A stretch of 64,000 nt of DNA from Pseudanabaena sp. PCC 7367 (lineage in GTDB: Bacteria > Cyanobacteriota > Cyanobacteriia > Pseudanabaenales > Pseudanabaenaceae), in assembly GCF_000317065.1 (NCBI RefSeq), contig NC_019701.1, forward strand, positions 2,323,001 through 2,387,000, in the 5' to 3' direction. Positions 44,858-48,017 of this stretch are shown piece by piece. Position 1 is the stretch's first letter; each line of letters opens with the position of its first letter. The notes under the pieces were generated by a model. That model searched no databases. It had not been told where the DNA came from and worked only from the letters and a program-made list of their open reading frames with translations. The translations under genes were made by a program, and so were the position numbers.

Positions 44858-44931
44858 CGGGCCCGGCAGGACTCTAACCTGCGACTTACCGCTTAGAAGG
44901 CGGTTGTTCTATACAACTGAACTACGAGCCC
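44858..44931 (-). tRNA. tRNA-Arg (anticodon UCU)
   Basis: The minus strand gives a full cloverleaf: acceptor GGGCTCG with CGGGCCC (including a G-T pair), anticodon stem ACCGC/GCGGT with loop CTTCTAA (anticodon TCT), and T-arm GCAGG-TTAGAGT-CCTGC. It reads AGA and AGG codons. The discriminator base is G and CCA is not encoded. Confidence 0.94.
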
Positions 44932-45226: not shown

Positions 45227-46801
45227 ATGCTAGATCAGATAATCGTCACCACCGCCCAAATGCGATCGATCGAAGAATTGATGTTTCGAGCGGGGATGCC
45301 CGTTGCGGCATTGATGGAGAAAGTGGCTGGCCAAATTGTCGATCGGATCGAAGCGCTCTATCCAGTTGCTGACTATGCCAAGGTGGGGATTTTGGTTGGC
45401 CCTGGTCATAATGGTGGTGATGCCTTGGTGGTGGCCAGGGAGTTGTGGCACCGCGATCGCCAGGTAAGAATCTTTTTGCCCCTACCCGATAAACTAAAAC
45501 CCCTCACCCGCGAACATTGCCAATATGCCCATAACCTGGGTATTCCCATTCTGCCTCTTGACAAATTAGACCAACTCAAAACCTGCGATTTAATTGTGGA
45601 TGGATTGTTTGGTTTTGGCCTGGAGCGGGAAATAACCGAGCCGATCGCCACCGCCATCAATACCATCAACACCTGGCAAGTACCCATTCTCAGCATCGAT
45701 CTGCCATCGGGGTTAAATACCGATCATGGCAAAATAATGGGTACTGCAATCAAGGCCAGCCATACCCTTTGCTTGGGTTTATGGAAGCGAGGTTTGTTTA
45801 CGGAATCGGCATTGGTGAATTTGGGAGAATTAGAGCGGGTTGATTTTGATATCCCCACTGCATTTGTAGTAAAAGTGTTGGGCAAAGATCATAATCTATG
45901 GCGAATTAATTGCACTCAGGCTCTAGACTGGTTGCCCAGATGTCGTCCCCTCAATAGCCATAAATATCAAACCGGGCATTTATTATTAATTGCCGGATCA
46001 CAACATTATCCAGGGGCAGCAATCTTGGCAGCATTAGGAGCAAGGGCTAGTGGCGTTGGCATGTTAACTATTCTGGTGCCGGAGTCATTACGCCAATTTG
46101 TCTTGGCACAGGTTCCCGAAGCCTTGGTAATTGGTTGCCCAGAAACAGAAACCGGAGCGATCGCCGAACTACCGTTCCAGGATGTGAGCAAATATAGCGT
46201 GATCGCCTGTGGCCCTGGCCTCACTGTTGATGCTCAGAATGCGGTAGAACAGGTGATTGGTAAGGAATGCCCATTGGTGTTGGATGCGGATGGTTTGAAT
46301 TTACTGGTGTTGATCGGCGTGAATAAATTCAAGCGGATTCGACCTCGGCCAACGATCATCACTCCCCATTGGGGCGAATTTGGCAGATTGTTTCCGCATC
46401 TTAAAAATCAACAGGATCGACTTGCAGCCCTGCGGGAGGCGATCGACATTACTGGCGCGATCGTTCTGCTGAAGGGAGCCCGCACCGCGATTGGTTTTAA
46501 CACTGGCAATCCGGTCAGCGCTCAAAGTATTGCCGATGGCGAAAAACAGAATGCGCAAATTTGGATTAATCCCGAAAGTACCCCAGCCTTGGCTCGTGGT
46601 GGCAGTGGCGATGTTTTAACCGGTTTGATTGGTGGTCTGTGGGCACAGGGTATGCAGGGGAATCAAGCGGCGATCGCGGCTACGATCTGGCATTCCCAGG
46701 CCGCAATTCAACTGGCCAAGCAGCATACCCAGATGAGTGTCGAGCCGAGTAAGTTGGCGAATCAATTGGGTTCAGTGTTGGCGGGTTTAGCGCAGGAATA
46801 G
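45227..46801 (+). CDS. nnr: Bifunctional NAD(P)HX epimerase / ADP- or ATP-dependent dehydratase
   Basis: The N-terminal YjeF epimerase domain (about residues 1-210) has VGPGHNGGDALVVARELWHR and the SIDLPSGLNTDHG motif. The C-terminal ribokinase-like dehydratase domain (about 230-524) has HLLLIAGSQHYPGAAILAALGA, PLVLDADGLNLL, TIITPHWGEFGRLF and STPALARGGSGDVLTGLIGGL. Together they repair hydrated NADH and NADPH. The fused architecture is the common bacterial form, equivalent to E. coli YjeF/Nnr. It lies alone, with a long spacer after it. Confidence 0.93.
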   Translation: MLDQIIVTTAQMRSIEELMFRAGMPVAALMEKVAGQIVDRIEALYPVADYAKVGILVGPGHNGGDALVVARELWHRDRQVRIFLPLPDKLKPLTREHCQYAHNLGIPILPLDKLDQLKTCDLIVDGLFGFGLEREITEPIATAINTINTWQVPILSIDLPSGLNTDHGKIMGTAIKASHTLCLGLWKRGLFTESALVNLGELERVDFDIPTAFVVKVLGKDHNLWRINCTQALDWLPRCRPLNSHKYQTGHLLLIAGSQHYPGAAILAALGARASGVGMLTILVPESLRQFVLAQVPEALVIGCPETETGAIAELPFQDVSKYSVIACGPGLTVDAQNAVEQVIGKECPLVLDADGLNLLVLIGVNKFKRIRPRPTIITPHWGEFGRLFPHLKNQQDRLAALREAIDITGAIVLLKGARTAIGFNTGNPVSAQSIADGEKQNAQIWINPESTPALARGGSGDVLTGLIGGLWAQGMQGNQAAIAATIWHSQAAIQLAKQHTQMSVEPSKLANQLGSVLAGLAQE

Positions 46802-47044
46802 GGAAGGCGATCGTTTTTTTGTACAGATTAAAATTCCGTTAAACGCAGTCCAAAAGCCAAGCATAGGTAAATATGATTATGCTAATGACCCAAAAACAAC
46901 CCAAAGATCGGAAAACTTAGCAGCGATCGTAAAAAAGCCCTTCCATTTCCAAAAAGATGTGTTATCTTAGGGAAGTCCAAGCAATAAGTCATGAACTGAT
47001 TGCAATCGAGACCCTTACCAAATAGGAAACAGGAGGTGATGCCC

Positions 47045-47116
47045 ATGATAGACAGTAGTAAATGCATGGGTCGCCTAGTATCCAATGTTGAACTGTGCGC
47101 TGGGGCTGCTCTCTAG
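47045..47116 (+). CDS. 23-residue mini-ORF with strong Shine-Dalgarno
   Basis: AGGAGG at 47031-47036 lies eight bases before ATG 47045, the best ribosome-binding site I saw in this window. The frame encodes 23 residues with two cysteines (MIDSSKCMGRLV near the start, VELCAGAAL at the end) and stops at TAG 47114. The peptide is neither a TM helix nor a known leader (no runs of one regulatory amino acid). The position ahead of a structured region suggests a leader peptide or a sensor ORF. I do not recognise it. Confidence 0.45.
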   Translation: MIDSSKCMGRLVSNVELCAGAAL

Positions 47117-47149
47117 TCCTTTAGGTTTTAAATATTTTTAATCTAAACC

Positions 47150-47290
47150 CTGGGGTTCCTCCCAGCAGTTGAACGATACTATGCGATCCGCTACACCGCT
47201 CTTAGTTACTGGTAGCTAGCAACCCAAGTTAATCAATCCGATTACTTGCCGCTGGTTTACCTCTACAACTAGGAGCGGATAGTTTTTATA
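47150..47290 (+). ncRNA. Candidate structured RNA / multi-hairpin 3' region
   Basis: Several helices can be drawn on the plus strand. CTGGG/CCCAG (47150-47154 with 47161-47165) has the loop GTTCCT, which contains a CCT that could reach the ribosome-binding site upstream. ATCCGCT (47186-47192) pairs with AGCGGAT (47274-47280), closing a multiloop. Inside it are TAGTTA-CTGG-TAGCTA (47203-47218) and AAGTtAATC/GATTACTT (47226-47247, one bulge). After the closing helix comes AGTTTTTAT, a T-tract. The pattern looks like a branched RNA with terminator. No Rfam family could be assigned by reading. Confidence 0.4.
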
Positions 47291-47342: not shown

Positions 47343-48017
47343 TCAGGCCAAGAGGCGATCGATTAGCTCCACTACGCCCTCGCCACAGATGCCGATCGTG
47401 ACCAAATCTGCGATCTCCCTGAGCTGCGGCAAAGCATTCGCCACCGCCACGCCATAACCACAGAGATTAATCAAATCATAATCATTCTCGGCATCACCAA
47501 CCGCCACAACCTGTTCCGGCGCGATCTGCAATTCCTTAAGCAATAAACTCAACCCCGCCGCCTTATTCACTCCCTGTGGCAGAATCATCACTTCGCCCTT
47601 GTTGAGGATAATTTGAGCATCGATCGTCATCTCGGTGATCAGCGTCTGGGTAGTTTTTAAATAGGGTTCTCTGGTGGCCACAATCACCTCACCATGAAAC
47701 AGATAATCAACGCCCCGCGCTGCTAAGGCTTGCATAAATTCTGGCGGCGGCGCTGCGCCCAGCAAAATTTTTTGATCCCGATCGCGCAAATATACCAATG
47801 CGCCATTCTCTGCCACCACCCCATCACAATAATCCCAAATTTGGGGAAATGTGCCAGTGAGATGGTCAAAACCCTGATCAAACAGCCGACCAGTCACAAT
47901 CAAGAACTTGCCACCAGCTTCACGCCATTGGGCGATCGCTTGCCGCGTAGAATCGGCCACCTGTCCCTTAATTGCAATGGTGCCATCAAAATCCGAGGCG
48001 ATCGCTAGATATGCCAT
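47343..48017 (-). CDS. HAD-superfamily phosphatase (Cof-like)
   Basis: The 224-residue protein has the HAD motif I DFDGTIAIKGQVAD, motif II VTGRLFD, motif III lysine region (NKAAG), and motif IV AVGDAENDYDLINLCGYGVAVANAL. The C2-type cap with the sequence of Cof phosphatases is present. It is expected to hydrolyse small phosphorylated metabolites such as sugar phosphates. The substrate is unknown. It is followed on the minus strand by nothing within the window's 540-base spacer. Confidence 0.87.
   Translation of the reverse strand: MAYLAIASDFDGTIAIKGQVADSTRQAIAQWREAGGKFLIVTGRLFDQGFDHLTGTFPQIWDYCDGVVAENGALVYLRDRDQKILLGAAPPPEFMQALAARGVDYLFHGEVIVATREPYLKTTQTLITEMTIDAQIILNKGEVMILPQGVNKAAGLSLLLKELQIAPEQVVAVGDAENDYDLINLCGYGVAVANALPQLREIADLVTIGICGEGVVELIDRLLA

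Follow-up and report, generated by a model that had tools for sequence, protein, structure and literature searches.

Two published cyanobacterial RNAs are the closest described relatives of the locus examined here. ncl0160 (Mitschke et al., 2011; Brenes-Alvarez et al., 2016, PMC4734099) is a widespread RNA with 83 homologs, for which a conserved peptide of 23–25 amino acids was predicted behind a ribosome-binding site, with ATG or GTG starts and all three stop codons. The main text of that report predicts a structure solely for the homolog from Nostoc 7120, and its passages on the RNA mention no phylum-wide covariation model, start switch, synteny or 17-residue variants, all of which are described below. 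Sye_sRNA1 of S. elongatus UTEX 2973 was described as a highly abundant sRNA with its own promoter, a conserved structure and a main transcript of ~200 nt, located mostly downstream of psbD or cobB and with homologs in Anabaena 7120, Synechocystis 6803 (TU475) and 6714 (TU2045); the passages that introduce it state neither coding capacity nor a link to ncl0160 (PMC6091082). A third RNA, Yfr103, is very abundant, structured and ~300 nt long in marine Synechococcus and Prochlorococcus (PMC5069720). By published accounts, the transcript considered here ranks with the most abundant RNAs of several cyanobacteria, and its family is real and published.

The locus and its family

The locus lies on the plus strand of a window of 64,000 nt (the whole stretch of DNA analysed) from a genome of 4,885,680 bases in two contigs. 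It is unannotated and sits between a convergent gene pair (Table 1). The initial annotation had pointed to a 23-codon ORF with AGGAGG 8 nt before its ATG, and the sequence bears this out. The ribosome-binding site was also confirmed, and the full 10-mer AGGAGGTGAT occurs at one of the 97 AGGAGG-N5–9-ATG matches in the genome, namely the window site. None of the other genomic copies of the 10-mer resembles a 16S 3′ end. A Shine-Dalgarno sequence is complementary to the anti-Shine-Dalgarno sequence of 16S rRNA. AGGAGG itself is scarce in the window (4 observed, 22.8 expected). The plus strand of the locus folded better than every one of 100 dinucleotide shuffles (z −4.2), and the T-tract is present. 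These features are real and well past chance expectation.

An extended −10 promoter was also found upstream in 116 of 170 relatives, compared to 13 of 170 shuffled controls, and transcription in the window would start near position 46975. Its own promoter and its own terminator support the self-contained transcript that had been suggested.

Table 1. Coordinates of the locus, its parts and its neighbours in the window.
Feature	Position	Strand	Basis and remarks
tRNA gene	44858–44931	−	sole Rfam match in the 64,000-nt window
NAD(P)H-hydrate epimerase/dehydratase (NAD(P)HX epimerase/dehydratase) gene	45227–46801	+	upstream neighbour
Small RNA locus	~46958 to ~47287	+	promoter to terminator end
Extended −10 promoter TGTGTTATCTT	46958–46968	+	motif read in the sequence
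Shine-Dalgarno AGGAGGTGAT	47031–47040	+	read directly; AGGAGG is 47031–47036
P0, start-codon hairpin	47038–47075	+	47038–47047 with 47065–47075, one bulged base; 47039/47074 is A-C in the window
23-codon ORF MIDSSKCMGRLVSNVELCAGAAL and TAG	47045–47116	+	homologous ORF in 172 distinct loci
P1, 5′ strand within the ORF	47068–47082	+	pairs with 47175–47189; covariation (70 sequences) and window minimum-energy fold, in which two 7-bp runs form: 47068–47074/47183–47189 and 47076–47082/47175–47181
Upper arm helices, 5′ strands within the ORF	47089–47105 (47089–47094, 47099–47105)	+	pair with 47160–47172
3′ strand of the fold-back arm	47160–47189	+	covariation and minimum-energy fold
Terminator	47190–47287	+	GCTA-CA-CCGCTCTTAGT (47190–47206) pairs with ACTAGGAGCGG-A-TAGT (47268–47283), including 47196–47201 with 47273–47278; T-tract 47283–47287
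HAD-family hydrolase gene	47343–48017	−	downstream neighbour

DNA searches of relatives showed the Shine-Dalgarno and the ORF as the conserved core, and the set of homologs was extended with sequence patterns and covariance searches. The covariance model R1 matched 324 of 388 genomes of the cyanobacterial class and 148 of 160 genera, normally with one copy per genome. The window copy is in the seed, so that the match in its own genome (E 1.4e-40) is obtained by construction; ~300 of the matching genomes lie outside the seed. Loci in named public genomes include those of Nostoc, Microcoleus and Thermosynechococcus, and no R1 match was found in genomes of a size like that of Prochlorococcus or in a seemingly thermophile-like genus (g24). 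One locus (L191) is apparently from Gloeobacter violaceus PCC 7421, in which case the RNA family would be older than the deepest known split among living cyanobacteria. In the phylum sample outside the oxygenic class there was a single marginal match (G440:C14:104388-104500, E 0.002), which is probably due to chance. A second, mostly weak R1 match was present in five genomes (G053, G069, G071, G154 and G307), of which G071 has two strong pattern matches. Phage and plasmid records contained no match to the RNA, leaving a phage or plasmid origin without support.

The ORF lengths of 23–25 residues, the ATG and GTG starts, and the TAA, TAG and TGA stops behind a ribosome-binding site are all features of ncl0160 that recur in this family. 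The promoter, the conserved structure and, in relatives, the psbD or cobB synteny agree with the description of Sye_sRNA1. Neither psbD nor cobB adjoins the window copy, which was assigned by sequence and structure rather than by position. Since both descriptions fit, the two literature entries, one on a peptide and one on an sRNA, appear to concern one gene, a comparison made by description and not by sequence. The window locus is almost certainly a copy of this published family. The earlier suggestion of an RNA family not previously known is thus right in that no Rfam family matches the locus and wrong in that the family had been published; the proposed resemblance to Yfr2 likewise found no Rfam match. 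Yfr103, which may be the same RNA, differs in that it is reported to have seven paralogs in one genome and to occur in Prochlorococcus, whereas the picocyanobacterial matches obtained here are mostly single.

We next consider the gene neighbourhood. A psbD gene precedes the RNA in 70 of 161 loci (PsbD was confirmed by Pfam at L224), and CobB was identified by Pfam upstream of L173. Where contigs break upstream of the RNA the gene is psbD, which is multi-copy in cyanobacteria. A linkage to rRNA operons, an idea that arose from contigs starting ~300 nt upstream, was rejected after no rRNA match was found in ten loci. On the downstream side, a gene for pterin-4a-carbinolamine dehydratase is found in 70 of 159 loci and a porin gene in others, as might be expected of a leader or attenuator that acts in cis on the next gene. 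However, the first long ORF (by a mechanical call) runs in the opposite direction in 23 of the 89 loci that lack the dehydratase gene, the RNA has its own terminator, and neighbours vary among genomes. In the window genome this reading, raised earlier as a leader-peptide regulator, fails because the next gene is convergent. Overall we consider it very improbable. Porin-like genes are often located 3′ of the RNA, directly or past the pterin dehydratase gene (L173, L175, L052, L130 and similar loci), and the gene downstream at L230 encodes an SLH-domain protein that is probably a porin.

A reading frame within a conserved fold-back arm

The 172 distinct loci contain ORFs of 16–35 codons, mostly 23 and in 163 cases 23–25. 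They start with ATG (168 loci) or GTG (four) and end with TAA (96), TAG (75) or TGA (one). The start-to-motif distance is most commonly 48 nt (138 loci), with 51 nt in 12 loci and 47 nt in one, and in the latter a new stop follows immediately. At two loci (L017 and L181) the usual stop is lost and the next in-frame stop is one codon further on. GGAGGTG does not vary across 70 aligned relatives, some of which were found with patterns containing it. The search patterns also required AGTAGTA, and the invariance of that motif, and partly that of the Shine-Dalgarno and AGTAGTAAA, is therefore by construction.

For covariation we used an alignment of 70 diverse sequences (A2). A structure of 43 pairs had 93.4% of cells paired, compared to 85.1% after shuffling, and 312 two-sided cells when 84 were expected from shuffles; 28 of the pairs showed two-sided changes. 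Sliding the partners by 1–3 columns reduced pairing to 30–52%. A long fold-back arm takes one of its strands from the 3′ half of the ORF, which pairs with the strand just 5′ of the terminator. The upper arm helices had 92% and 97% of cells paired, with two-sided changes present. Both strands of the second P1 run in the window (TAGTATC/GATACTA) differ from the consensus of the family, and at this run the window row is shifted relative to the MAFFT columns. The terminator contributed 15 pairs, with 96% of cells paired and two-sided changes in seven. Picocyanobacteria (CGA-GA-GCCCCC ... GGGGGC-A-TCG-TTTT) and L191 retain its asymmetric internal loop (2 nt/1 nt). Some clades (L025, L188 and L192) have an ordinary terminator instead of this one and still carry the arm.

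Compensatory changes among relatives thus support a fold, though its helices are not those drawn in the initial annotation. The CCC[AG]GC strand, which had been assigned to a local CTGGG/CCCAG hairpin, co-varies in relatives with GC[CT]GGGG within the ORF. Instead of a 7-bp helix of 47186–47192 with 47274–47280, the conserved fold pairs 47186–47189 with 47068–47071 and 47273–47278 with 47196–47201. The earlier hairpin and helix are, as judged from the alignment, local alternatives that it does not support. Two further pairings, that of the Shine-Dalgarno with the CCT-rich stretch and a possible one between the UUCCU loop and the 5′ TAGG, were examined by eye and rejected for want of consistent covariation; the first is uninformative because nearly any pyrimidine-rich strand would pair with the Shine-Dalgarno. 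The earlier proposal of a peptide-coding small RNA with translation-linked folding is supported by a conserved ORF and a covarying fold that includes it.

The covarying structure would also be expected of a purely non-coding regulatory sRNA whose ORF merely contacts ribosomes or is incidental, and Sye_sRNA1 was published as an sRNA in an account that, where it introduces the RNA, does not mention coding capacity (PMC6091082). Conservation of the Shine-Dalgarno, the start, the frame and an in-frame stop in 172 loci, including the later in-frame stops of L017 and L181, argues against this explanation, which we regard as improbable.

The main rival is that the RNA is an mRNA for a functional micropeptide of 17–25 amino acids, with the structure protecting the mRNA and tuning its translation. 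A Ser-rich N-terminus is retained in most lineages, frame 0 scores above the other two frames, and indels are nearly all of 3 nt. In addition, the fold-back arm is gone from six relatives that belong to the same family as the window (L020, L023, L024, L185, L186 and L187), which keep the Shine-Dalgarno, the start and the N-terminus of ORFs of 22–35 codons; at L020, L023, L024, L185 and L186 this favours a role for the ORF or peptide alone. On the other hand, amino-acid conservation beyond that of the nucleotide columns is weak and not clearly above column permutation (P ~0.09), and at several codons positions 1 and 2 are as variable as position 3. In several lineages the stop is at codon 17 or 18 instead of 24, 5′ of the upper arm helix, and the C-terminal CAGAVL is missing while the arm helices are retained. 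There is also no NCBIfam family for the peptide. On balance we consider a functional micropeptide unlikely, if the most serious of the alternatives. With start, frame and stop conserved and selection on amino acids weak, the peptide is less tightly constrained than initiation, frame and termination. In picocyanobacterial forms (L229–L234) the terminator loop described above is accompanied by an ORF of 17 residues, for instance MSSSCLTQGLLIAENAG.

A predicted start-codon switch

A second pairing involves the start codon. The strand GATGCCCATG, which covers the AUG, is able to pair with CATGGGTCATC to form the hairpin P0. In the alignment 88% of P0 cells are paired, the 5′ side is near-invariant and two-sided changes are absent; covariation is unable to test P0, because the Shine-Dalgarno and start fix its 5′ side. 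The 3′ strand of P0 doubles as the beginning of P1, and P0 and P1 are therefore mutually exclusive. At L185, which has a GTG start, the P0 partner is changed such that P0 persists, though the arm is lost. At L191, P0 appears weak or lost.

Folding energies were calculated for the RNA alone, with neither ribosomes nor proteins included. In the energy model, pairing of the AUG in the nascent RNA was 0.85, compared to 0.52 when codons 2–15 were shuffled, and occlusion of the Shine-Dalgarno was barely different from that in shuffles (0.56 vs 0.53). The predicted probability that the AUG is unpaired rose from 0.16 in the truncated RNA to 0.47 at full length. Addition of the real 3′ part opened the AUG by a mean of 0.31, compared to 0.01 with a shuffled 3′ part; the nominal P value for this switch overstates independence because the sequences tested are related. 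In thermodynamic terms only, the AUG is predicted to be hidden while the RNA is nascent and freed once the arm forms.

Proposed translation-gated folding and comparison with known systems

These results suggest a model in which the locus encodes a translated, self-folding RNA of ~310 nt. During synthesis the AUG would sit in P0; once the 3′ part is made, P1 would capture part of the P0 strand and the AUG would open, both steps as predicted by the thermodynamic model. A ribosome that translates the ORF would then melt the arm and expose its 3′ strand. Since the fold takes in the second half of the reading frame, translation must re-shape the molecule. The RNA would thus be built around the act of translation more than around the peptide sequence. 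Most likely, the C/U-rich 3′ strand, once exposed, or else the transition from one state to the other, melted or closed, would link translation with the stability of the RNA or with its pairing to other mRNAs. We consider it an even call whether family identity and translation-gated folding hold jointly. The broader proposal is tentative and, as it stands, rather unlikely: in a very abundant RNA found across the class, translating the short ORF, and not the peptide, would be the regulatory event, with passage of the ribosome opening the arm and thereby reporting or transmitting the state of translation. A reading frame inside a covarying fold, together with a predicted start-codon switch, opens the function to direct mutant tests.

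The layout of a tiny ORF, a start-codon hairpin and long-range pairing is similar to that of type I toxin mRNAs such as hok, with a metastable 5′ hairpin and a fold-back. The peptides of the 172 loci, however, are short with a polar N-terminus and contain no membrane segment discernible by eye, the RNA occurs nearly throughout the class, as a rule with one copy per genome, and matches are absent from phage and plasmid records. We regard a toxin-like mRNA as extremely improbable. Compared with hok-type mRNAs and trpL- or ermC-type leader peptides, the window RNA has no cis target gene downstream, no membrane segment seen by eye in its peptide and no plasmid linkage; what it shares with these systems is a short ORF set in a switchable RNA structure.
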